In this document: piece by piece, positions 38,286 through 63,611 of the stretch
How positions within the stretch are numbered: the stretch's first letter is position 1
How the letters are laid out: each line of letters begins with the position of its first letter
The notes under the pieces: generated by a model
What the model saw: the letters and a program-made list of their open reading frames with translations, nothing else
Told to the model about the DNA's origin: nothing
The model's database searches: none
Position numbers and translations under genes: made by a program
Assembly (NCBI GenBank): GCA_030248195.1
Contig: JASAND010030883.1
Location: 27,266-91,265 of the forward strand
Length of the DNA: 64,000 nucleotides
Direction of reading: 5' to 3'
Origin: Trissonchulus latispiculum
Lineage: Eukaryota > Nematoda > Enoplea > Enoplida > Ironidae

Positions 38286-40360
38286 GTCATTGTGGATACC
38301 GGTGCTGACCTAAACTGTATCCCATCTTCATTGGCAAAGAGACTTTGCGAAGAAGGCATTGCTGAGGATGGTCATGGGACCGTTAGGGCGATGGGACCGT
38401 GGGGCCCAGCTATGGATTTGCGTACCGTGACGGTGGACACATCAGTGAATGATGGTCCTGCAGGTCCAATTTCTTTTGCGGTTGTAGGGGATACGGCTGC
38501 AAACGAAGGTAATGAGGTCCTATTGTCCAGGGATGCCGCAGCACGCCTAGGGATAGCCAGTTTGATCTGGCACGTCGACGCCGGGAAAAGTACACAACAG
38601 AATGGTCCAGGAACAGCAAACGTTTTCGAACCTAACAGTAAGAAAACTAAAGAACCTTCCGCTTCCGATCCAGACATTCTGGAAATGACTTCTACTGAAA
38701 GTGACGCAAACCTAATAGAGGTTAAAGGCAAGCGCAGGAACCAGAGATTGGTGGTTGCCGTTCCGGGTGCAGACCGTGATCTGTTATTTGAGCCTGTAGA
38801 AGCTTTGTCATCGGTGGTATCCGCTGGGGTGGTCCGGGTGTGCAATGGCATATTGCCCTTACCCTGTCCGGGTGGTACGTGCAAGCTGTTGAAGAGTGCC
38901 GTCCTGGGCACAGTCACTGCCCTTCGGCAGTTGCGCGCCCTACCGGCTCATGTGGGGCACAAAGTGATGTGTGTCACTGGAGGGAGCACCGACACAACGG
39001 GTTCTACTGGTAGCAAAGAAGCTGTCTTGAGTCTTGCCGATGACCAAACACTGGATCTGACAGAAGAGCAACGTAAAGTGCTAATCAAACTCTTAACTGA
39101 GTTTGCAGATGTCGTTTGCTCTCGTAGAGCCGATGTGGTTGGCGGTGCTAGGGGCGTGAAGCACAGTATCGATACTGTAGGCGAGCCTATCAAGCAGAAG
39201 CCAAGAAGACTTTCAGAGCATGCCCAGCGCGTCGAGTAAGACGAGGTTGAAAAGATGTTGCAAGGAAGGGTTATTAGGAAGTCCAAACCTCCATGGGTAA
39301 GTCCAGTGGTTCTAGTGGTAAAGAAGGACGGAACCATCCGGTTTTGTATAGACTACCGCAAGGTTAACAGAATAACCGTGAAGGACGCTTTTCCGATGCC
39401 GCGGGTAGAAGATTTGGTGTGAATAGGAAGGAACGCCAAGTACTTCACGACCTTGGACTGCATGTCCGGGTATTGGAAATTCCGTTGGATGAAGAAGCCA
39501 TTCCAAAAACGGCCTTTGCTACTACGTCAGGCCTACACGAGTTCTTGGTGATGCCCTTTGGACTTACCAACGCCGGAGCTACATTTCAGAGGTACACCTC
39601 TTCGGTGATGGAGGGGCTTCCGTTTGGTGGTGTCTATATAGACGACATTATAGTGGCTAGCCAATCCTTCGAAGACCATATGCTGCATCTGCGACAAGTA
39701 TTGGCGCGGCTGAGGAGAAGTCGTTTGGGAATAAAGCTGAGCAAGTGCATCTTTGCAGCAAAGAGAGTGCCTTTCTTGGGTATGGTCTTGGAGAACGGTG
39801 TGATCTTCCCATCTCCGCAACGTGTGGACAAACTGATGGCCTGGAAGCCGCCTCAAGATCTGGCTCAACTCCGTACTTTCCTTGGAGCTATGGGGTATTG
39901 CCGAAGATTCATACGAAACTACGCAGCCATGTCCGAACCTCTCAACCGACTAACAAGAAAGGGCGTGGCCTATGCCTGGAATGAAAAGGAACAACAGGCT
40001 GTAAAAACCCTAAAAACGGCGTTGGCCAGTGCTGTAGCCCAGCATCAGGTAGACAATGATCCGGAAAGTCAATTTATTCTGGAGACGGATGCGAGTGGTT
40101 ACGCCCTGGGAGCGGCCCTATATCAGAAGTCCAAAGACGTAACCCGGCTGGTGTCCCTGCAGTCCAAGTCCCTTAATCGTGCACAACAAAACTACTCAAC
40201 AGTGGAGAAAGAGGCTTTAGCGGTAGTTTGTGCACTGCGAGTGTTCAGCACGATTCTTCCTATATCAAAGAAACCTATAGTTGTATGGACAGACCATCGT
40301 CCACTGACAGCTATCATGAAGTTGTGGATGGATGATCCGCCTAATGCCAGGATGGGTTGA
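38286..40360 (+). pseudogene. pol: pol remnant: protease, reverse transcriptase, RNase H
   Basis: The aspartic protease motif VDTGADLN lies at about 38291. A linker of about 250 residues follows, and the frame stops at 39237-39239 just before the reverse-transcriptase fingers. A conserved RT segment (DGTIRFCIDYRKVNR) is in the same register further on, and another stop falls near 39419. From about 39430 the frame changes and carries MPFGLTNAGATFQ, the catalytic YIDD (about 39637) and RNase H with ETDASGYALGAALY (about 40081). It is broken again at 40360. Confidence 0.88.
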
Positions 40361-41466
40361 GACGGTTAGGCCAACGGATGTCCAAGTTCACCACAAATCC
40401 GGAGCAACAAATCAGCTGGCTGATGCAATGCCCAGACTGCGCTCTTTGCGAATACTGCCTCGACACGACTGGGATGAAAGAGAACTGGTCGTGGCCCTGG
40501 CGGAAGAACTTACGGACGACGACCTAAAAGCAATGGGGCTCGTTCAAGTTGGTTCGTTGTGGTACTTGGAGGAAAAAGATTCGTCCTTCGTCTGTACGTT
40601 CCTCAAATGCTTCGACAAAGACCTGTTGAAGACGCCCATGGGGGTCCTCTGGGCGGCCACTTTGGGTGGAAAACTGTGTATGACCTTCTGAAAGAAAAGT
40701 ACTTTTGGCCGGGCATGTCAGTTTTGGTAAAGAACATCGTGACTTCTTGTCAGGTGTGCAAGAAGCGCTGTCCTGGGCGCAAGGCGGTACCTGAACTTCA
40801 ACCAATCTCGGTCGACGAGCCTGGTGAGTTGGTAGCAATCGACATAACATTTCTTCCACGAAGTCGAAAAGGCAACAGGTACGTCCTGGTGGTGGTGGTG
40901 GATCACTTCTCCAAATTCGGGCAAGCCTACATTTTGGAGGATACTTCGTCGGAATCCGTGATTAAGCGAATCAAGCAATACATTATGGTTGCTGGGAGTC
41001 CTAAGCGGCTGCTCTCTGACCGTGGCAGGTGCTTCACTTCAGAGAAGTTCCAGAAATTCTGCCCCGGCTACGGAATGAAGCATTCTTTGACCACTTCCAA
41101 TCACCCACAAGAAAACGGCGTCGCCGAAAGGTTTATCCGCACCATAGTCGGTGTGCTGGCCAAGAAATCATGCGATGTTCCTACAAAGACGCCGTCTCGG
41201 CCTATCTTGCAGGGCCACACTCCTCTACTGGCAAGAGCCCAAGGGAAATTGCCTTCGTGCATGATGACCGAATCCTGAACGAAGCACGCCGCAAGTTAAA
41301 GTCAGAACAACAAGCCAGGAAGCAAGCCTATGATCGAGTTAAAGCAAGGCCGAAAGTTCTGCTGGAGGGGGATCAGGTCTACGTCTATGATAGAAGAAAG
41401 CGTGTTGGTCAACATGGAGAACTTGCTTCTCCTTGGGTGGGGCCTCTTACTGCCAAGGACGTTTAA
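40361..41466 (+). pseudogene. pol: pol remnant: integrase
   Basis: A zinc-binding-type region includes GGHFG and CQVCKKRC (about 40648-40770). The DDE core follows with VAIDITFL, the second Asp in LLSDRGRCF, and the Glu in HPQENGVAERF. The core frame stops at 41278, and the C-terminal part continues in another frame to 41466. The frame breaks indicate loss of function. Confidence 0.88.
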
Positions 41467-54353: not shown

Positions 54354-54857
54354 TTAATGGTTGCAGTCATAATGATTCCACGGTGTAATGAGCCATTCGG
54401 GAACAGTCCATCGTTTACAGGGGTGGTTTCCCAACCATTCCGTAAAGTCCACCGATCGAACGTCGCAGTCCAGAGGCCCCAGCGCATATGCAATGTCAAT
54501 CCTGGCGGTTTCCATAGATTCGAATATTTCCTGACCTTGTAGTTGAAGTTTCCGTAGACGTGAGTAAACCTTCCAGGTAACGCCCCTCTGTAATGGCTGA
54601 TCTGGTCCGGGCAAGATCATCATGAGGTCGTGCTGTCCAGATTTCCGCAGTGCCTCTCGAAATAAAATCGAGGCATTCGCTCCGTGTCGATTAAGCGTTG
54701 CTATAATATCCATATTTCTTTCATGGCCAGGCGTCCGACGCCTGAGGTCCTCCGCCACGTTGGGAGAAAGTAATCCAACTTCCAATAGATAATCCAATAC
54801 AGGCTCAGCCTTCACGTCGTTGCAAAATAATACTAAATTTTCGTAAACAAGATCCAT
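54354..54857 (-). CDS. CARD-like death-fold protein of virus-like element
   Basis: 167 aa from the ATG at 54857 (GAATTATGGATC), preceded by a TTTTGTTTTAG acceptor-like tract. Residues 1-83 fit the six-helix pattern of caspase-recruitment domains: an N-terminal helix (YENLVLFCNDV), LDYLLEVGLLSPNVAEDLRR, an MDIIATLNRHG helix, then LFREALRKSGQHDLMMIL. The remaining about 84 residues have no recognised fold. CARDs bind other CARDs in apoptosis and innate immune signalling, so a virus-borne copy might act as a decoy or inhibitor; that role is inference. It is the leftmost gene of the element. The assignment rests on pattern inspection only. Confidence 0.65.
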   Translation of the reverse strand: MDLVYENLVLFCNDVKAEPVLDYLLEVGLLSPNVAEDLRRRTPGHERNMDIIATLNRHGANASILFREALRKSGQHDLMMILPGPDQPLQRGVTWKVYSRLRKLQLQGQEIFESMETARIDIAYALGPLDCDVRSVDFTEWLGNHPCKRWTVPEWLITPWNHYDCNH

Positions 54858-54983
54858 AATTCCTAAAACAAAAATGAAAGAGATTATTGCAAGTATCAAC
54901 AGATTTGTAATGCCAAGTACTAAGTACTAGGCGGAACCTCCGAAGAGGTTTGTAGTTTCCGTCAGTCAGCGTTCATCCGTAGT

Positions 54984-55289
54984 TCAATCGTATCCATCCG
55001 CAGAATCCGCAGCTTCCTGTTCAGGAACGTAGAACAGAAAGAACTCAATTGCAGTCTTCTTATGAAGAATGTGGGCCACAGTCTGTTTGGGAAAGTCCCT
55101 CACATCAGTCAGTCCAATGGGCACCAGTGTTCCAGTTCCGTTGTTGACAATCATAGAGACTTTACGTTTGCCTCTCAAGAGATTGCTTATCCGAGTGATC
55201 CAGGTTTCGCTGTCCATTGGGACACGGTCATCAATCTGAATCCATTTCAAACCAAAGTTAGACTCTTGGTGTTCATATGGTTCAATCAT
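54984..55289 (-). CDS. Unknown 101-aa protein of virus-like element
   Basis: ATG at 55289. There is no signal peptide or membrane segment, and the C-terminus is acidic (PEQEAADSADGYD). The middle is rich in beta-prone stretches (VSMIVNNGTGTLVPIG, AIEFFLFYVPE). A TTAATAAAAG motif lies 62-71 bp upstream of the ATG. No family is recognised. It sits among accessory genes on the same strand. Confidence 0.6.
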   Translation of the reverse strand: MIEPYEHQESNFGLKWIQIDDRVPMDSETWITRISNLLRGKRKVSMIVNNGTGTLVPIGLTDVRDFPKQTVAHILHKKTAIEFFLFYVPEQEAADSADGYD

Positions 55290-55350: not shown

Positions 55351-55360
55351 CTTTTATTAA
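55351..55360 (-). promoter_or_regulatory. TTAATAAAAG motif before the 101-aa gene
   Basis: 62-71 bp before the ATG at 55289. The longer match is GAAATTAATAAAAGGGA. Confidence 0.5.
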
Positions 55361-55389: not shown

Positions 55390-55677
55390 CTATTTGATGT
55401 GAATGGCCGTTAGATGAAGTTGTGGACGGCCTTGAAACCCTGACGACTGAAATAGTCCTGTCTTGGTCACCCAGTCCTTGTATAGGATATGAGAGCAGGA
55501 ATCTGCTATCAGTAGAAACATCAGGCTATCTTCAGTCCAATCCGGGAAGTGAGCCATCAGAAAGCGATTCACATTGGATCCATCAATCAAATCATTTTCC
55601 ATGGCACCGATGGTTGCTTCCACACATCGCATTCTGTTGGCATCGGCAGCGTAATCTTTGCTTATTTCAAATTCCAT
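55390..55677 (-). CDS. Unknown 95-aa protein of virus-like element
   Basis: ATG at 55677. Residues 15-70 look helical (CVEATIGAMENDL, SLMFLLIADSCSHIL), with no clear domain match. A TTAATAAAAG motif lies 52-61 bp upstream of the ATG. The length and helical character would allow a small death-fold or adaptor-like protein, but that is a guess. Confidence 0.6.
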   Translation of the reverse strand: MEFEISKDYAADANRMRCVEATIGAMENDLIDGSNVNRFLMAHFPDWTEDSLMFLLIADSCSHILYKDWVTKTGLFQSSGFQGRPQLHLTAIHIK

Positions 55678-55728: not shown

Positions 55729-55738
55729 CTTTTATTAA
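55729..55738 (-). promoter_or_regulatory. TTAATAAAAG motif before the 95-aa gene
   Basis: 52-61 bp before the ATG at 55677. The longer match GGAAATTAATAAAAGGAAG is shared closely with the site at 55351. Confidence 0.5.
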
Positions 55739-56632: not shown

Positions 56633-57574
56633 TTAAATTTCAATTGCACTTAAATGAGGGAGCAAGTCATACATGCTGACGTAATTATCACTAGTGTCCA
56701 TGTTCTCTACCTCAGAAGCCGCAGTATCCATGACCGCTACCTCAGTAGCCATTGGACTAGTGTCCATCATCTCTACTTGACCACTGTCCATTCTGGTCTG
56801 GTCACAATGTACCTCATCCAATTTTAATTTCAAATTTAGCCAATACTGTTCGTTGAAATGAACAGGAACTACTAGCAACTCCTTTACTCTGGGAGCATAT
56901 ACAGCTAAATGAGTAAAGCTGATGCCAGTAATTGCCATTTGGCCGAGAACTTGTGCATAGTAGTTGTGTTCCTTGCGTAAAACGTACTGACCATTTACTA
57001 CTTTTAAGTAAAAACTAGTTCCTCGCTCTAGTCTGATTTGTGTAATTGAACGAGGGGTAGGGTGGGTATCGTACAAACACTTAACCTCTAGCAACCATGG
57101 TTTGGTGCTAGAATCAAACTTATTGACAACAACTCCATCTGGAGAAGCACCTAGATAAGGCGCCCATTCAGGAACGCAGAGGCCTACGTCATAAATACAG
57201 ATATCCACATTGTAGGTATCTTGCATAAATTTTATGTAAGCTCGTTTCGCATTTATCTCTTCTTTAATGCCAACCAAACAAGCTGCTGGCATTTTAGTGG
57301 TCTGAAGGTTCCCTTTCCTGCGAGCGATTCGACCAAACTGCGAAGCCGTTAATCGATTCATTCTCAGTTTCCACCAAAAAGGATTTTCACGCTGACCTAG
57401 AGTACTTATTGCTGTTTGCTTATCAATTAATGATTTCATTTGCACCATAAAGGTCGGATGTTTTTTCATTTTCTTGCAGCTATTCTTTTCTGCATTTGCA
57501 GTTTTTCTTTTCTGCATTTTTGTACTGCAGTTTTTCTTTTCTGCTTTTTTTCTGCAGTCTTTTCTTGTCTTCAT
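56633..57574 (-). CDS. YqaJ/lambda-exonuclease-family nuclease
   Basis: 313 aa from the ATG at 57574. Residues 1-40 are very lysine-rich and derive from a tandem repeat that continues upstream. The nuclease core follows: RLTASQFG (74-81), LGASPDG (141-147) supplying the metal-binding aspartate, LLEVKC (161-166) with the EXK motif, and YAQVLGQM (206-213). These are the landmarks of PD-(D/E)XK viral alkaline exonucleases, which resect DNA ends for recombination and replication of viral genomes. The C-terminal tail has three acidic MDT repeats (MMDTSP, VMDTAA, NMDTSD). The core is intact. It probably acts with the neighbouring gene at 55965-56507 in DNA processing. Confidence 0.85.
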   Translation of the reverse strand: MKTRKDCRKKAEKKNCSTKMQKRKTANAEKNSCKKMKKHPTFMVQMKSLIDKQTAISTLGQRENPFWWKLRMNRLTASQFGRIARRKGNLQTTKMPAACLVGIKEEINAKRAYIKFMQDTYNVDICIYDVGLCVPEWAPYLGASPDGVVVNKFDSSTKPWLLEVKCLYDTHPTPRSITQIRLERGTSFYLKVVNGQYVLRKEHNYYAQVLGQMAITGISFTHLAVYAPRVKELLVVPVHFNEQYWLNLKLKLDEVHCDQTRMDSGQVEMMDTSPMATEVAVMDTAASEVENMDTSDNYVSMYDLLPHLSAIEI

Positions 57575-57738: not shown

Positions 57739-58251
57739 TTACTTGAGTTCATCACGTATTTTCATCAAGTTTTCGCCATGAACGTTGTGTCCTTTCCAGT
57801 TTCTTCTGTCTTCGACACCATCTTCATTGATTGCCATTCCAATTCCAAAAAATTTGTCGTATTTAGATGCCTCGGCCAGGGTTGCACTGCCTGTTGACAC
57901 CAGTTTGTCCCGAGCTACCTTGTTCTGCCCAAACTTTGCTCTTAGAGCAGTCAGCATCACATCTTCCGCAGCCTTCCGCCATTCAACTTTATCAAAGCCC
58001 TTGATGTCTTTAGCCAGTTCCTTGCACCGACTCGGTGCCCAGCATTCCAGAATCTTCTTATAAGCATCGTGGTCATTGAAGTACCATGCCTTCCGAGACT
58101 GATAATATTGTTCTACAGTATGGTAGAGGCGACCATCGATGAGAAAAGGCAGCCGGTAAAAGTTCGAGAAGGTTGAGTATCCAGTGAAGAATAGGTAGAT
58201 ATCTCCATCCGGTTGTTGAATAAATCGTTCATGGCAATCAGAGTTCTGCAT
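57739..58251 (-). CDS. NADAR/YbiA-like domain protein (ADP-ribose-type N-glycosidase family)
   Basis: 170 aa from the ATG at 58251, essentially a single NADAR domain. Visible landmarks are FSNFY (28-32), DGRLYHTVEQYYQSRKA (39-55), W91 in the central helix, ALRAKFGQN (102-110), FGIGM (135-139), and the C-terminal GHNVHGENLM.IR block (154-166). Family members cleave N-glycosidic bonds in riboflavin intermediates or ADP-ribosyl compounds. Related proteins occur in phages and large DNA viruses, where they can counter ADP-ribose-based defence or NAD depletion. A counter-defence role here is inference. All key blocks are present. Confidence 0.87.
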   Translation of the reverse strand: MQNSDCHERFIQQPDGDIYLFFTGYSTFSNFYRLPFLIDGRLYHTVEQYYQSRKAWYFNDHDAYKKILECWAPSRCKELAKDIKGFDKVEWRKAAEDVMLTALRAKFGQNKVARDKLVSTGSATLAEASKYDKFFGIGMAINEDGVEDRRNWKGHNVHGENLMKIRDELK

Positions 58252-58337: not shown

Positions 58338-58525
58338 TGGCGTCGGTTTAGATGTCCTGCTGTGAAACATCTGCCACTTGGCCTCAATAGTTTTCTAAAT
58401 TTCACTCGACCTCATGCTGTGAAAACATCTGCCACTTGGCGTCGGTTATATACCCTGTTGTGAAACCTCTTCTAGAGTTTTCTAAATATAATTCGACCTC
58501 CTGCTGTGAAACACCTGCCACTATA
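58338..58525. repeat. Intergenic direct repeats between NADAR and structural genes
   Basis: Four spaced copies of TGCTGTGAAACATCTGCCACTT-like sequence start near 58358, 58414, 58456 and 58502. TTTTCTAAAT and ATTCGACCTC pieces lie between them. The block lies in the largest gap between the accessory genes and the virion-type genes. It could be a regulatory or replication site. Confidence 0.65.
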
Positions 58526-59045
58526 GAAAATCTATATGCATTTGTATATACGTATGTTCCAATACAAATTCAAGATCGAATTCACTTAACTTTTCAACAA
58601 CAGTTGCCCCATTCAAACAATTACGAATATAGAAAAGTTTTGAATCTTTATCAACAACCAATAATAATTTTAGGGGAACATCTTTACGAACAGTTTGTAA
58701 TATATCATCAAAGGTACGAAACAAATACACAACTCTTGCACCCCATAATTTATCCGCTTTTGGAATATCTAATCCAATACTTGCTCTAAGTCTACGAGCA
58801 TCTAAATTATCCCAAAGAATCCTATATCCTGTGGAAGGGATATACTCCTCTGGGTTTGTTCGAGTAAAATTCTGGAAACACATTACTGTGTTCGATTGTG
58901 TTGGCAGGGGTGCAAGAGTGACATTTAACAACAGTTGCCCTTGTTTAAACAGTACAATCAAAACACTCAATATAAATATCAATATAAATACAAATACTCC
59001 AAATTTACCGCGTTCTTCCCAACGCGAAATAATATTTATGTACAT
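58521..59045 (-). CDS. Membrane-anchored unknown protein of virus-like element
   Basis: 174 aa from the ATG at 59045. A single strong transmembrane segment lies at about residues 15-33 (FGVFVFILIFILSVLIVLF) after a basic N-terminus, predicting an anchored protein with an exterior or luminal C-terminal domain. Its start overlaps the end of the upstream gene (59036-59344) by 10 nt. No family is recognised. A virion or membrane-associated role is possible by position in the structural block. Confidence 0.65.
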   Translation of the reverse strand: MYINIISRWEERGKFGVFVFILIFILSVLIVLFKQGQLLLNVTLAPLPTQSNTVMCFQNFTRTNPEEYIPSTGYRILWDNLDARRLRASIGLDIPKADKLWGARVVYLFRTFDDILQTVRKDVPLKLLLVVDKDSKLFYIRNCLNGATVVEKLSEFDLEFVLEHTYIQMHIDFL

Positions 59046-59344
59046 TTTATATGTATAAATGTTACGGTAACTGATCGATCGTCTGCAAAAAGTCTAGCAA
59101 AGTTTGTGGTATTTACAGCGCCACTTAATAAAATACTTGTCTGGAATGAATGAAAGTGTTCGTCTTCAAAAATAAATACCACATTATCTCTTGATTCCGT
59201 AGCTCGCAGTAGCGAGTTTAGAAAATCTCTAATATTTTTCTCTCCTAAGTTTTGGCAACTTGTAGTTAAGCTGTACACAGAAAATGTTAGTCGCGAGCAA
59301 TCAACCCCGAGAGTTGAAACAGGAGTTACCATTAAGGTATCCAT
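59036..59344 (-). CDS. Unknown 102-aa protein of virus-like element
   Basis: ATG at 59344, overlapping the upstream gene by 13 nt and the downstream gene by 10 nt. It shows alternating beta-prone and helical segments (DNVVFIFEDEHFHSF, SVTVTFIHIKC). No domain is recognised. A TTAATAAAAG motif lies 31-40 bp upstream of the ATG, inside the previous gene. Confidence 0.65.
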   Translation of the reverse strand: MDTLMVTPVSTLGVDCSRLTFSVYSLTTSCQNLGEKNIRDFLNSLLRATESRDNVVFIFEDEHFHSFQTSILLSGAVNTTNFARLFADDRSVTVTFIHIKCT

Positions 59345-59775
59345 TCGTAGTATGATTTAACAGCTTGTTTATGTCTTTTATTAATTTCAGTTCGTGAAAT
59401 TGCTGCTTTAGGTACGCCGAGCTCTTTCAACAATTTTGCAAACTTTGGTGCATCTAAGGGCCGTAATTGCTTAATATGATTTGGAGTAACAAAATATTTA
59501 ACTAAATCGAGCAAATGAGAACCCTTCTCATTCGTAGGTGGGTACAAAATCCTTTGGGACGAATCCAATTTTACGTTTCCTTCTAAATAGTGTAACAAAA
59601 TTCTGGCTTTATTTCTGTACTGTTTCGGTAACTGATCCGCTAAATTTTGTAATGTTTCAGTGTTGGATTTAACAATTTGATACTGTGTTGAAGTTTGAGG
59701 AGCTGTTGTACTTCCTTGGGATGTTAACAATTTTTGATATACATTTTCCGGTATCACTACCATTCGTTGCGCCAT
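59332..59775 (-). CDS. Conserved 147-aa protein of Maverick-like elements
   Basis: The ATG at 59775 directly follows the TAA of the upstream gene. A low-complexity N-terminal third is followed by a conserved-looking core (LPKQYRNKARILLHYLEG, GSHLLDLVKYFV, APKFAKLLKELGVP). In my recollection this core recurs beside capsid genes in many invertebrate virus-like elements; the molecular role is not established. By position it is probably a virion or assembly protein. Confidence 0.7.
   Translation of the reverse strand: MAQRMVVIPENVYQKLLTSQGSTTAPQTSTQYQIVKSNTETLQNLADQLPKQYRNKARILLHYLEGNVKLDSSQRILYPPTNEKGSHLLDLVKYFVTPNHIKQLRPLDAPKFAKLLKELGVPKAAISRTEINKRHKQAVKSYYEWIP
59375..59384 (-). promoter_or_regulatory. 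TTAATAAAAG motif before the 102-aa gene
   Basis: It lies inside the 147-aa gene, 31-40 bp before the ATG at 59344. The longer match is GAAATTAATAAAAGAC. Confidence 0.5.
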
Positions 59776-60096
59776 TTATATAAACGTTTCCAGAAACTTT
59801 AGTGCAGGTTCTAACAGAAATTTTAGCAAAAGAGGATTCCTCTTGACTATTGCTACTTTGCGACTATCTAGTACCTTTTTATTCGTTAAAAGTTCGACGA
59901 GTTTAGTATATCGTTTCAATTTTCTTTGCTGTTGGGGCGTTAGAGGTACTCTACCATTTACAACGTTAAGAGTTACTTCCGAGATTGCTTTTATTAAACT
60001 TTTCCTTGCAGTACTAAGCATCGCAGAAATAACTTTAGGATGCGCTTCGGCGAGCACATGCAAAAAGTGAACGTTAGTTTTTACTACTGTCGACAT
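59776..60096 (-). CDS. Small basic helical protein of Maverick-like elements
   Basis: 106 aa from the ATG at 60096. It has a helix-rich N-terminal half (ISAMLSTARKSLIKAISEV), a central VPLTPQQQRKLKRYTK segment and a hydrophobic C-terminus (PLLLKFLLEPALKFLE). This pattern is common next to capsid genes in related elements and could be a DNA- or capsid-associated minor virion protein. It lies between the ATPase gene (stop at 60124) and the 147-aa gene, in a tight cluster. Confidence 0.7.
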   Translation of the reverse strand: MSTVVKTNVHFLHVLAEAHPKVISAMLSTARKSLIKAISEVTLNVVNGRVPLTPQQQRKLKRYTKLVELLTNKKVLDSRKVAIVKRNPLLLKFLLEPALKFLETFI

Positions 60097-60123: not shown

Positions 60124-60765
60124 CTATTTATTACCTTTAGGTAAACATAAGTAATGCTGTTCACCCGGAAATATACCTTCTTTAACTCTAAATCGTGGAT
60201 CGGTGGTTGGTTTTAAGTCCAAAAGCAAGTAGCCGAAAGGCTTGGACGTAGCTTGGGCAAAAGCGTCTGGTAGAAATTTGGGTTGATTTGGGAAAATTTG
60301 TTGTCCTAGCCGACTTATAATTTGAGCATCTCTGGGATTGGGGAAAAGCACAATATAGTTTGCGTTGCGTGTGATAGTTCTTAGATATTTTGATTCGTGA
60401 TAAAAATTTTGCAACACCAAAATTATTGAACAGTTGGCGTGACGACATTTCGTGAATAATGCCGGCAATCTTTTATCGTTTTCCAGTTCAAACATTAAAT
60501 CATCAAGAACTATCAGCGTGTCGCCGTCGCTACTGGTTACTGTTTCTACCAAATCTGTTGGTATCCCCTGAATCATTTCAATATTAGGTACTTTGTTAAG
60601 CAAGTCTTTATAAAGATCTTGAAACATAGAGTACAAGTAGAAAATTTTGTCAAAAGGTTTATTGTGTATCTCAGATTGATTCTCCAAAAGTTTACTCACA
60701 AAGACAGATTTTCCGCTACCTGTCACACCCGAAACTATCATTGTATAAGGTTGTAAAAGCGCCAT
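60124..60765 (-). CDS. Packaging ATPase (A32/FtsK-HerA type)
   Basis: 213 aa from the ATG at 60765. Walker A is GVTGSGKS (13-20) and Walker B LIVLDDL (84-90). A sensor-like VLQNFYH (117-123) and an arginine-containing TRNANYIVLF segment (132-141) follow. Length and motif order fit the genome-packaging ATPases of Polintons, adenovirus-like elements and large DNA viruses, which drive DNA into capsids. A TTAATAAAAG-like motif (CTAATAAAAG) lies 30-39 bp upstream of the ATG, just after the capsid gene's stop. All catalytic motifs are intact. Confidence 0.88.
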   Translation of the reverse strand: MALLQPYTMIVSGVTGSGKSVFVSKLLENQSEIHNKPFDKIFYLYSMFQDLYKDLLNKVPNIEMIQGIPTDLVETVTSSDGDTLIVLDDLMFELENDKRLPALFTKCRHANCSIILVLQNFYHESKYLRTITRNANYIVLFPNPRDAQIISRLGQQIFPNQPKFLPDAFAQATSKPFGYLLLDLKPTTDPRFRVKEGIFPGEQHYLCLPKGNK

Positions 60766-60794: not shown

Positions 60795-60804
60795 CTTTTA
60801 TTAG
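60795..60804 (-). promoter_or_regulatory. CTAATAAAAG motif before the ATPase gene
   Basis: 30-39 bp before the ATG at 60765. It also follows the capsid stop by a few bases, so it could instead serve as a poly(A) signal (AATAAA). Confidence 0.45.
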
Positions 60805-60807
60805 CTT

Positions 60808-62193
60808 CTATTCAGTCCAAGTAGGATTGCGCGAGCTATCAATATGAAGCATAGTGTCAAATTCTCCAATCACCAATAGTGTCGCCGCTGTATAAAGCGG
60901 TTTCTTGAAGTCCAACTTTACTCTCAAGTTTCCTTGTTGTGTAGGATTATTGTATTCGCAAAAGGCTGCTTGATCTTTAGTGCAGTCTATTGCAAAAATT
61001 CCGTACCCACCCTCAAAATCTTCCAAACTCAAATCCAGATTTGGATTTTCTCCAGTGACACCCATCAAGGCATACATGAAAACTCTGAGTTTGTCAAAAT
61101 TGTAATTATCGTAAGTCAAGCTCGCTGCTTGAGGTAAACTTTGGTCATTAACGTATACGCTTAGTGTCCCCAAGTGGTACAACTTAAAATCAAAAGGGTT
61201 GCTGAATATTTGCGCATTATACGCACTGCTGTCAATCATAAACAAGAAAATCCGTTGGGGAAGGTTACCGGTGAATACTGTCCATTCAGCGTTTTGATGA
61301 TTTTGCGCTAAGGCCCGGGCTTTACCGATGTATCGGGTAGTGGGATAGTGGAAACCTTTCGAATTTAGCAACTTATCGTAAGCCGTAATGGCAGGCTGCG
61401 TCAATTTCACTCTAGGAACATAAAGTTTTGCGTCTAGTACTTTAATTTTATATGTTAAGCGTTCTAGTTGGTCGAACAGTGCAAAAGACGAAGGAGTTCG
61501 TAGAAATCTAATTGTAATTTCCGTTTGGCCAGGAATTAACCTACCAAATTTTCTAATGTCACTCATTAAAGGTAACAACAGTTCTAACTTTTGGGATTTT
61601 TCAATTAGTTTATGTCTCTCTTCCATCGCTGAATTCAAAGTATAACGTTTTGGTTTCTTGTTTTCAGTGGTACCGACCTGGTCAGTAGTAGTAGTGGCTA
61701 CTTCTTTTGTTTCCTCTGCAGAACGCGGTATGTAGTGTACACTTAAAGTCCCCGCTGGATCTTTAATCCAGTTTATAAGTTTGAGGGTAAATGCATCCTT
61801 TGGTTCAAATAAAAGATGGCGCAAGTAGCATAGCCAAGGGAATATTACTTGATCGGTAGTGATTCGTTGATCGCTAATATAAATTTCGCAGTTTGCGAAA
61901 ATTGCATAACCAAATAAATTTATTGGCGCAACAAAATTATCTTCAGTTAGCTCGGTGTTATCATTTTTCAAAACTTGTAACTTTATGTAGAAAAATGTTT
62001 GATCCAAATCTATATAAGCATCTGTTTTATCAAGACGAAAGTCTAAACTTGTTAAACCATCTCTCGGTAAACTTGTATAACATGGAATTTCTAAAATTTG
62101 AGAAGACTCTATTGCCTGCTGTACATCGGGTAATGTGGCATAGTCTAAAGACTCGACACTGCAAGCTCGAAACAAATTAGATTTTTTATTCAT
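60808..62193 (-). CDS. Capsid protein of the F54H12.2 type
   Basis: 461 aa from the ATG at 62193, which overlaps the stop of the preceding basic gene as ATGA. The N-terminal half carries the conserved landmarks of this family: DAYIDLDQTFFYIKLQV (about 58-74), VAPINLFGYAIFANCEIYI (about 88-106) and a PWLCYLRHLL segment. F54H12.2-like proteins are capsid-type proteins widespread in invertebrate Maverick-like elements. A jelly-roll virion protein is therefore the likely product, but whether it is the major or a minor capsid protein cannot be settled by eye. The frame is open throughout. A TTAATAAAAG motif lies 58-67 bp upstream of the ATG. Confidence 0.82.
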   Translation of the reverse strand: MNKKSNLFRACSVESLDYATLPDVQQAIESSQILEIPCYTSLPRDGLTSLDFRLDKTDAYIDLDQTFFYIKLQVLKNDNTELTEDNFVAPINLFGYAIFANCEIYISDQRITTDQVIFPWLCYLRHLLFEPKDAFTLKLINWIKDPAGTLSVHYIPRSAEETKEVATTTTDQVGTTENKKPKRYTLNSAMEERHKLIEKSQKLELLLPLMSDIRKFGRLIPGQTEITIRFLRTPSSFALFDQLERLTYKIKVLDAKLYVPRVKLTQPAITAYDKLLNSKGFHYPTTRYIGKARALAQNHQNAEWTVFTGNLPQRIFLFMIDSSAYNAQIFSNPFDFKLYHLGTLSVYVNDQSLPQAASLTYDNYNFDKLRVFMYALMGVTGENPNLDLSLEDFEGGYGIFAIDCTKDQAAFCEYNNPTQQGNLRVKLDFKKPLYTAATLLVIGEFDTMLHIDSSRNPTWTE

Positions 62194-62345
62194 CGTCTAC
62201 GTTTGCGTCTTGTTACCTTACGTTTGCGTTTAGTGCTAGACTTTCGCTTCCTTTTATTAACTTTACCAACTTTGCTAGACTTTCTTCTACGCTTTTTAGT
62301 GCCAGTGGCACCTGGGAAAAGCACTGTACGTTTGCGAAATACCAT
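62190..62345 (-). CDS. 51-aa arginine/lysine-rich protein
   Basis: ATG at 62345, TGA at 62190-62192, overlapping the capsid ATG. More than half of residues 17-51 are Arg or Lys (KKRRRKSSK, KRKRKSSTKRKRK, RRKRRR), so the product is protamine-like. Small basic core proteins condense DNA in adenovirus-like virions; a DNA-condensing or nuclear-targeting role is inferred. It is short but sits exactly between the penton-like and capsid genes on the same strand with a 4-nt overlap, which supports it as a real gene. Confidence 0.65.
   Translation of the reverse strand: MVFRKRTVLFPGATGTKKRRRKSSKVGKVNKRKRKSSTKRKRKVTRRKRRR
62251..62260 (-). promoter_or_regulatory. TTAATAAAAG motif before the capsid gene
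   Basis: It lies inside the basic-protein gene, 58-67 bp before the capsid ATG at 62193. Confidence 0.5.
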
Positions 62346-62396: not shown

Positions 62397-63020
62397 CTAT
62401 CTATTAATTTTCCTAAAGTGAAGCTGTAGAACGACGACTCCACCATGAAACTTTACAGGTTGAAACAACAAGTTGAGGAATTGAAAACGCAAAGTGGTTA
62501 ATTCCGTTTCCAACAGCTCGACATATTCAGTAGATGCCATTGCTTGTCTTGGCATAAATGTATGCAACAATGGTAAAGTAGTATTATTAACAATCTGTGG
62601 CTTTACAAAGCTAGCAACAACGAAAAGCACTTGTCTCATATAATCTAAATCAATTGGTTTCGAAACAACTGTCTGCCCGGGTTCGATTCCCAGAACGTGA
62701 GACAATGGGGCCGATACTGTAACTTGTTTGTCGCTAATAATTTTTACGACATTGGCAGTCGAAAGCTCTAATTTAACGTCAGCAGTACTTAATAGCTTAT
62801 CTAATTTCTCTATTAAGTCAGCTTCATTGTCAGAGAATCCGCCAGGCACAATAATCTTTTCACCATCAACTACGAATTCACCACTGGGTATATTCTCCCA
62901 GCCTTTAGTTAGCGTACATTTTGTAACACCGACTTCAAAACCTTCCACTTTAAGTGCCTTTGGCAAATTTACAGAAGGATAGTCGGTATTAATAGTCAAA
63001 TTCACGTTAAAGCTAGACAT
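62397..63020 (-). CDS. Penton-like protein (nested product with internal start)
   Basis: 207 aa if started at the ATG at 63020, whose context ACAAAAATGTCTAGC is favourable. Family landmarks are an N-terminal LTINTDYPSVNLPKALKVEG segment, WENIPSGEFVV, IIVPGGFSDNEADLIEKLDK, and the C-terminal VVVLQLHFRK. In related elements a protein of this length begins at the equivalent Met, and TTAATAAAAG lies 30-39 bp upstream here. The separate product is therefore favoured, though a read-through fusion with the TBP-like part cannot be excluded. It is likely a pentameric vertex or minor capsid protein; this is inferred from gene context and family resemblance. Confidence 0.6.
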   Translation of the reverse strand: MSSFNVNLTINTDYPSVNLPKALKVEGFEVGVTKCTLTKGWENIPSGEFVVDGEKIIVPGGFSDNEADLIEKLDKLLSTADVKLELSTANVVKIISDKQVTVSAPLSHVLGIEPGQTVVSKPIDLDYMRQVLFVVASFVKPQIVNNTTLPLLHTFMPRQAMASTEYVELLETELTTLRFQFLNLLFQPVKFHGGVVVLQLHFRKINR

Positions 63021-63611
63021 TTTTGTCCAATCTTTAGTAACTACCGCGTCTTTTATTAATGAGAATACCACTTCCGCATAGCGAAACATATTCTCAACTG
63101 AATTAGCACCTGTAATGATAGCTTTTCCAGTATGAAAAATATTTGCAGTGACACTTGGCGCTAGAATCACACGAACACCTCCCCTTTCAATGAGCTGTTC
63201 GAACCTATACTTGGTACGTACGTGCTCGGCCAACGCTGTCAAATCAATATGACGATGTGCATTGCAGCAAGCGACAACATTCTGCAACGTAAACGTGGGG
63301 GCAATCAGTGGGTAACCCAGTCTACGCAAAAGTACTGTGCAATGTTTAATTGCTTTATGCACTTGACACAACCGATTAGCCCCTACTATAGTAGCTTTGC
63401 CAGTACTAAATAGAAGAAATGTAACATATTTACCACCTGCAAGAAATTTCCACTTAAGACCACGAAAACGTGCCGGTGTGTATTCAGTGTTTTTAAACTT
63501 TTGATTAATTTTGGTTAAGTCTAACGACTGATTGAAATTTACCGTTCCTTGCAAATTCGTAATATACCATTCCGGCTCAGTAGTGTTAGAATATGCGTAT
63601 AAAATCATCAT
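62397..63611 (-). CDS. TATA-binding-protein homologue in frame with penton-like protein
   Basis: One open frame of 404 aa from the ATG at 63611. The N-terminal about 190 residues carry two TBP-type repeats. Repeat 1 (about 17-102) has NLQGTVNF, TPARFRGLKWKF and LFSTGKATIVGA. Repeat 2 (about 108-190) has TLQNVVACCN and IFHTGKAIITGAN. This is the saddle architecture of TBP, with the paired FxSGKxxxTGA-like signatures. The C-terminal part starts at an internal Met (63020) and resembles the small penton-like protein encoded beside F54H12.2-type capsids, ending VVVLQLHFRK. There is no stop between the two. It may be a fusion, or two products with an internal promoter (motif at 63050-63059). A promoter-recognition role for the TBP part is inferred from the family. 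Confidence 0.78.
   Translation of the reverse strand: MMILYAYSNTTEPEWYITNLQGTVNFNQSLDLTKINQKFKNTEYTPARFRGLKWKFLAGGKYVTFLLFSTGKATIVGANRLCQVHKAIKHCTVLLRRLGYPLIAPTFTLQNVVACCNAHRHIDLTALAEHVRTKYRFEQLIERGGVRVILAPSVTANIFHTGKAIITGANSVENMFRYAEVVFSLIKDAVVTKDWTKMSSFNVNLTINTDYPSVNLPKALKVEGFEVGVTKCTLTKGWENIPSGEFVVDGEKIIVPGGFSDNEADLIEKLDKLLSTADVKLELSTANVVKIISDKQVTVSAPLSHVLGIEPGQTVVSKPIDLDYMRQVLFVVASFVKPQIVNNTTLPLLHTFMPRQAMASTEYVELLETELTTLRFQFLNLLFQPVKFHGGVVVLQLHFRKINR
63050..63059 (-). promoter_or_regulatory. TTAATAAAAG motif before the penton-like start
   Basis: TTAATAAAAG on the minus strand, 30-39 bp upstream of the ATG at 63020 and inside the TBP-like frame. The same core occurs at 62251-62260, 60795-60804 (CTAATAAAAG), 59375-59384, 55729-55738 and 55351-55360, each 30-71 bp before a start codon. 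Confidence 0.55.

Follow-up and report, generated by a model that had tools for sequence, protein, structure and literature searches.

A TATA-binding protein homologue encoded by a Maverick/Polinton-type element of the nematode Trissonchulus latispiculum, and the TATA-like words before the genes of the element

Whether a compact virus-like element can bring its own promoter-recognition factor is the question raised by a 404-aa open reading frame (ORF) of Trissonchulus latispiculum, which lies in a 64-kb stretch of genomic DNA (64,000 nucleotides, analysed as a whole and hereafter called the window; Table 1). The preliminary description of the locus had read the ORF as a TATA-binding protein (TBP) homologue with two consecutive TBP-type repeats carrying TGKA signatures, and both repeats are borne out, as the ORF matches family PF00352 of Pfam in two stretches (E 3.3e-30; 104 bits against a cut-off of 22.9) and contains the paired signatures 'STGKATIVGAN' and 'HTGKAIITGAN'. 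TBP is also what is found by phmmer in the PDB, where the 35 sequences at E≤10 are named as TBP/TFIID or TBP-containing fusions, except 4wzs_D, which bears a locus name only, and by the NCBIfam scan, in which all ten families listed are TBP families, each scoring below its own curated cut-off. The AlphaFold2 model, based on an alignment of 53 proteins obtained in the protein search, predicts a TBP saddle (mean pLDDT of ten-residue blocks 86–97 across residues 11–190), and residues 198–404 are mostly below pLDDT 50. With the predicted saddle as query, Foldseek returns 44 PDB matches at E≤0.001, all of them TBP entries or, by title, TBP-containing complexes; the best is 1mp9 (TM by target 0.81–0.83), and other TBP chains reach up to 0.90. 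Residues about 10–190 are a two-repeat TBP homologue belonging to PF00352; the earlier reading of the ORF as TBP holds for this part, while residues 198–404 constitute another domain (the C-terminal domain, CTD).

As judged from its gene content, a Maverick/Polinton-type provirus is present in the window in one copy. Its genes share one strand (integrase, TBP + CTD, 51-aa ORF, 461-aa ORF, ATPase, small ORFs, NADAR, YqaJ and CARD) and, with the PF03175 polymerase and rve integrase core of other copies, make up much of the Maverick/Polinton gene set, the packaging ATPase being PF04665. The window contig ends before the polymerase region, and the viral-type family-B DNA polymerase is known from other copies, where three of the five long frames scanned upstream match PF03175 (E 4e-10 to 2e-7), each of them belonging to group A (defined below), and the two group B long frames and the four shorter upstream frames scanned do not. 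The rve integrase core PF00665 is accompanied by a chromodomain in copies L114 and L133. Among the ORFs scanned there is no TFIIB-like gene and no adenovirus-type cysteine protease, part of the element lying beyond the contig; such a protease is identifiable in 74% of Polintons according to the accessible part of PMC4028283. The two end pieces of copy C10649 show no match to each other as terminal inverted repeats, and the true ends may lie outside these pieces.

The 461-aa ORF is the probable major capsid protein on the grounds of its size, place and conservation; its best match in Pfam, PHROGs and PDB is no better than E 0.04, and its single-sequence fold, predicted without an alignment, has a pLDDT of 32. 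The TBP gene had been placed between an integrase and a capsid gene: the integrase adjoins it upstream, but on the other side the 51-aa basic ORF intervenes, so that the TBP gene is next but one to an ORF whose capsid identity is itself only probable. Several other features of the window deserve mention. The ORF with the CARD domain, close to the element's left end, might interfere with host death or immune signalling. The NADAR gene occurs in both lineages of the element and adjoins TBP in group B (L131, L132, L133); the window NADAR protein passes the model for riboflavin-intermediate N-glycosidase and matches the NADAR anti-phage model below its cut-off. Outside the element, frames at 39419–41466 (+ strand) are retrotransposon-like, resembling reverse transcriptase/integrase by eye.

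Table 1. Features of the element and sites of its TATA-like word in the window
Feature	Position	Strand	Basis or remark
Integrase C-terminus with chromodomain, cut by contig end	63628–63999	-	Pfam 5e-13
Whole ORF, TBP + CTD in one frame, 404 aa	62397–63611	-	ATG 63611, stop 62397
TBP saddle, two repeats, residues about 10–190	63042–63584	-	PF00352, AlphaFold2, Foldseek
TAATAAAAG, 38 nt before CTD ATG, inside TBP coding region	63050–63058	-	
CTD, from internal ATG codon 198	62397–63020	-	Separate ORF in L128–L133 (broken in L130)
51-aa basic protein, candidate core protein	62190–62345	-	ORF; no Pfam match
TAATAAAAG, 66 nt before capsid-type ATG	62251–62259	-	
461-aa protein, probable major capsid protein	60808–62193	-	Size, place, conservation
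TAATAAAAG, 38 nt before ATPase ATG	60795–60803	-	
A32-type genome-packaging ATPase	60124–60765	-	PF04665 3.4e-9
106-aa ORF	59776–60096	-	Relatives in both lineages; comparison of regions
TAATAAAAG inside 106-aa ORF, 221 nt to next annotated ATG	59988–59996	-	One misfit among seven
147-aa ORF	59332–59775	-	Relatives in both lineages; comparison of regions
TAATAAAAG, 39 nt before 102-aa ORF	59375–59383	-	
102-aa ORF	59036–59344	-	ORF, region comparison
174-aa ORF	58521–59045	-	ORF
NADAR-domain protein	57739–58251	-	PF08719 5e-40
YqaJ-type exonuclease	56633–57574	-	PF09588 4e-7
TAATAAAAG, 60 nt before 95-aa ORF (55390–55677)	55729–55737	-	
TAATAAAAG, 70 nt before 101-aa ORF (54984–55289)	55351–55359	-	
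CARD-domain protein	54354–54899	-	PF00619 6e-8
Approximate left limit of similarity to element copy C10649	53485–53745		About 53.5–53.7 kb

The genome of T. latispiculum (733.8 Mb in 21,732 contigs) contains at least 110 stretches matching the ORF protein, several of which are pieces of one copy, and at least 25 of the 110 matches span residues ≤12 to ≥403 without a stop; stop-free copies elsewhere in the genome include some 94–97% identical to the window ORF and further ones. Twenty regions (L114–L133) were picked from these matches to cover the range of identity, and all 20 contain the integrase C-terminus, TBP and at least part of the capsid-type gene, so that the expectation of the same gene in related elements is confirmed, all within this one genome. 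The ATPase is present in 16 of the 20, and two of the four regions that miss it (L122 and L130) are cut by contig ends. Seventeen regions (group A, L114–L130) have the gene order of the window as far as each reaches, while three (group B, L131–L133) have the order integrase, ATPase, two small ORFs, NADAR, TBP, 110-aa ORF and capsid, with a capsid-type protein 31–34% identical to that of the window. As both gene orders carry TBP, the gene has stayed with the element through rearrangement. In the midpoint-rooted tree, which has long branches, group A is supported at 99/92 and the monophyly of the element TBPs (A + B) at only 80/91. Tandem repeat units of about 150 bp were seen in L141, in group B (L131–L133) the ATPase is preceded by CGGCTGACG-type repeats, and a group B ATPase (L132:1343-2023) has an N-terminal segment resembling a C2H2 finger (E 0.005, below cut-off).

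Genes of the element are preceded by a TATA-like word that differs between lineages, namely TAATAAAAG in the window, TAATAAGA in L128 and TATAAAAG in group B; it was first spotted as a repeated AATTAATAAAAG in the stretches before ATGs of the window. The word TAATAAAAG occurs seven times in the window, always on the coding (-) strand inside the element and nowhere else, against first-order Markov expectations of 0.18 on the coding strand of the element and, over the whole window, of 0.88 on one strand and 0.93 on the other. The looser pattern WTTAATAAAAG, with one mismatch allowed, shows no excess in the whole window (13 versus 10.0 expected). When 8-mers were counted in the stretches from -85 to -19 with no word chosen beforehand, the most widely shared was AATAAAAG or TAATAAAA for the window, where 6 of 15 genes have it, TAATAAGA for L128 (4 of 8) and TATAAAAG for L133 (4 of 8). 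For these three loci in turn, 2000 Markov shuffles yielded an 8-mer as widely shared 2, 4 and 13 times, and 2000 sets of random stretches did so 0, 9 and 7 times, figures that are optimistic because the range and the three example loci were picked after the word had been seen. The word is weaker or variant in the group A locus L117, where TTAATAAA is common to three of eight genes (the CTD start being set 3 nt too early in these stretches); no 8-mer is common among three genes in L120 and L127, and the words of L123 and L126 were inspected by eye only.

The words also sort by lineage. Exact TAATAAAAG is found in 13 of the 17 group A loci and TAATAAG[AT]AG in 14, both in none of the three group B loci and never antisense. 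The two occur together in L117–L122, L124 and L126–L128, showing that group A words overlap between loci. Each group B locus contains four sense and no antisense copies of exact TATAAAAG, which in group A is limited to one sense (L126) and three antisense occurrences (L114–L116). Sites lie 25–90 nt before an annotated ATG in six of seven cases in the window and in four of four in both L128 and L133; the distances of these 14 sites are 34–83 nt, ten of them 34–48 nt, fitting a TATA box about 30 nt before the transcription start with a short leader. A site matching the position of the one misfit of the window (Table 1) is also present in L114–L117. In the window, L128 and L133 the sites precede the CTD, capsid-type and ATPase genes together with some small ORFs, and a site also precedes the integrase in L114–L116. 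None of the 20 TBP genes has any of the three words within 150 nt. Besides the misfit of the window, the sites that depart from the general pattern are one TAATAAAAG at 108 nt in L128 and one antisense TAATAAGA in L133.

A shared word of this kind could be the polyadenylation signal of the preceding gene and unrelated to TBP, as TAATAAAAG contains AATAAA and the ATPase site directly follows the preceding stop codon. This explanation is unlikely and is rejected for most of the sites: those before the CTD, capsid-type and 102-aa ORFs fall inside the coding region of the gene ahead, with more than 40 nt of it still to come, so that cleavage there would truncate that gene, and the words TAATAAGA and TATAAAAG contain no AATAAA yet stand before some of the same genes at similar distances.

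The site inside the TBP coding region bears on the CTD. In the fused copies displayed, a promoter-like word stands directly before the CTD ATG, within TBP codons, in exact form in L114 and L117 and in variant form in L120, L121, L123, L126 and L127. The TBP and CTD share a single open frame in many group A copies but are separate ORFs in L128–L133, the CTD frame being broken in L130. Judging by these sites, an internal promoter probably drives the CTD independently of TBP, and copies with merged frames perhaps also yield a TBP fusion; the CTD is on our reading a late protein made separately, and in part of group A its frame has become continuous with that of TBP. It has no credible match in Pfam or PDB. 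MKT1_N was considered and dropped, because the match (3.4e-4) is below the curated cut-off and occurs in one of ten members. For one pair the dN/dS of the CTD is 2.06, a value resting on almost no synonymous change. By position only, the CTD is a candidate minor capsid or penton protein, with reference to the accessible part of PMC4028283. The single frame and the place of the TBP gene among capsid-type genes would also suit a virion component, in which TBP fused to a capsid-type protein binds or bends the packaged DNA or is delivered with the particle. Such a role seems quite unlikely, as the two domains are separate ORFs in L128–L133, the fused copies displayed retain a promoter-like site before the CTD ATG, and the promoter words would be left unexplained.

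The residues of the TBP part indicate how the words might be read. In yeast TBP numbering, which we take to be F99, F116, F207, N69, N159 and F190-P191 for the positions concerned, the first five are intact in all 16 element rows of the alignment. All 29 non-element rows and all three group B rows retain the second-repeat Phe-Pro pair (F190-P191), and in all 13 group A rows it is broken, being replaced by Arg-Gly, Lys-Pro, Leu-Cys, Leu-Pro, Tyr-Ala or Phe-Ala; two of these variants retain the proline and one retains the Phe. The canonical TATA-reading set (four Phe + Phe-Pro) is present in all three group B rows and incomplete in the window TBP, which has three of the four intercalating Phe, the second-repeat Phe being Arg (or Leu, by alignment). 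All 16 element rows have another residue in place of the first-repeat Thr (yeast position 124), and the glutamates taken as TFIIB contacts are not conserved in the aligned columns of group A, where a two-residue indel makes the alignment uncertain.

According to the accessible text of PMC12529657, the proline of the second-repeat Phe-Pro favours T at the first TATA position. The word of group B is TATAAAAG and that of group A is (T)AATAAAAG or (T)AATAAGA, the difference lying at the first base (TATAAAAG versus AATAAAAG). Loss of the Phe-Pro pair together with this first-base change suggests co-evolution of factor and sites in group A, away from the TATA boxes of the host; on the tree, word and protein covary in what is essentially one contrast (group A versus group B). 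The word TATAAAAG of group B could be readable by host TBP alone.

An altered second repeat in group A might instead lower DNA binding and make the protein a decoy, titrating host factors or promoters and shutting off host transcription. We regard this as very unlikely, since three of the four intercalating Phe and both Asn are kept in all 16 element rows, specific words stand at the genes of the element, and the dN/dS of the TBP part is 0.07–0.17 in the ten pairs, of 14 compared, that allow an estimate of dS (dS exceeding 2 in two of the ten; row L105, in a wrong frame, enters no pair and L103 enters one). The TBP gene is under purifying selection. That one element captured a host TBP gene by chance, with no function attached, was conceivable when the window copy alone was known but is hardly credible, being already contradicted by TBP in 20 of 20 regions across two lineages, by 25 near full-length stop-free copies and by this selection.

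The best explanation, to which we give a probability of roughly 0.7, is that a lineage of Maverick/Polinton-type elements encodes its own TBP as a stable gene and, as we infer, switches on its own capsid and packaging genes. The proposal of the preliminary description that the element brings its own promoter-recognition factor is strengthened by the lineage-specific TATA-like words before the capsid-type and packaging genes; going by these sequences, the element probably does so for its capsid and packaging genes. We lean, with less assurance, towards a more specific version, in which an element TBP of altered TATA specificity co-evolves with lineage-specific late promoters (TAATAAAAG, TAATAAGA and TATAAAAG) and switches these genes independently of host TBP. 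The TBP would be made early from a promoter without the word, bind the word sites about 30 nt upstream of short-leader transcripts, bend the DNA and recruit host RNA polymerase II, so that the late capsid and packaging genes would be turned on by the element itself, a switch that would resemble the action of the herpesvirus viral TBP at TATTWAA promoters.

To our knowledge, viral TBPs are known only from large genomes, namely those of giant viruses, mirusviruses and herpesviruses. Maverick-type elements are described as 15–20 kb in the accessible part of PMC4028283. A TBP in such elements would mean that small DNA viruses in which no RNA polymerase gene is seen can carry their own promoter specificity; on the more specific version, a compact virus-like transposon would be running a promoter code of its own. 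How TBP and promoter are paired is a natural experiment on the evolution of TBP specificity, because one genome contains many copies and at least three variants of the word, and it makes it possible to ask directly whether Mavericks are expressed, and when.

The full ORF and the TBP part have no match at E≤0.001 in a set of 5.8 billion proteins, probably because few candidates share words with them. A 12-row TBP alignment gives 249 matches in the same set, and the 120 listed all belong to PF00352 at 23–36% identity, with no close relative of the element TBP among them. Scans with the TBP alignment yield one partial match, on a contig taken for an archaeal virus or provirus, and four giant-virus-like loci in IMG/VR, two of which are near-duplicates; in a tree of weak resolution, three IMG/VR giant-virus-like rows are placed separately from the element TBPs. 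No relatives were found in IMG/VR with the TBP, capsid-type and ATPase proteins or with the capsid-type alignment, and no TBP relative was found among the INPHARED phages. The BFVD fold matches bearing names are mostly giant-virus proteins, with a few from ascovirus, iridovirus, African swine fever virus, vaccinia and herpesvirus; many rows are nameless, and all these viral matches are weaker than those to cellular TBP.

The element shares with Mavericks/Polintons and adintoviruses a PolB, an rve integrase, an A32/FtsK-type ATPase and a capsid-type gene cluster, but differs in its TBP, which is not reported there in the literature searched. In the accessible parts of the literature that mentions TBP together with polinton, Mavericks or virophage, the reports of TBP concern giant viruses, mirusviruses and mirusvirus-like elements, not Polintons, and the main texts of PMC11071296, PMC11071308 and PMC10120064 contain no word beginning 'TATA'. 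The earlier claim that no TBP had been reported for Polinton/Maverick or adintovirus-like elements stands within this scope, outside which lie the original adintovirus description and most subscription papers. Cellular and archaeal TBPs (PF00352) have the same two-repeat saddle, of which the element TBP keeps three of the four intercalating Phe and both minor-groove Asn, but it is 22–36% identical to the TBPs compared, has the Phe-Pro pair broken in group A and is encoded by a mobile virus-like element. Among giant viruses (Nucleocytoviricota), available descriptions record TBP genes in Megavirus chilensis and CpV-BQ1, whose genomes are much larger (437 kb in CpV), Megavirus having RNA polymerase subunits of its own. 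Mirusviruses, of which 59% of genomes contain TBP according to the accessible part of PMC10132985, are large plankton viruses with an HK97-type capsid protein and are not Maverick-type. Proteins of the KSHV ORF24/UL87 family of beta- and gammaherpesviruses are TBP mimics which, as described in the accessible text of PMC12529657, replace TBP at minimal late promoters with the non-canonical TATTWAA. Like these, the element TBP is virus-encoded, and its fold weakly matches (E 1.6e-3) that of a UL87-domain protein; membership of this family was considered and rejected, as the element TBP matches PF00352 and the UL87 fold match is far weaker than that to cellular TBP. ORF24 itself is larger, has several domains, depends on four Phe and acts together with five other viral activators (accessible text of PMC12529657), whereas the element protein is the size of a TBP and is matched directly by the TBP profile.
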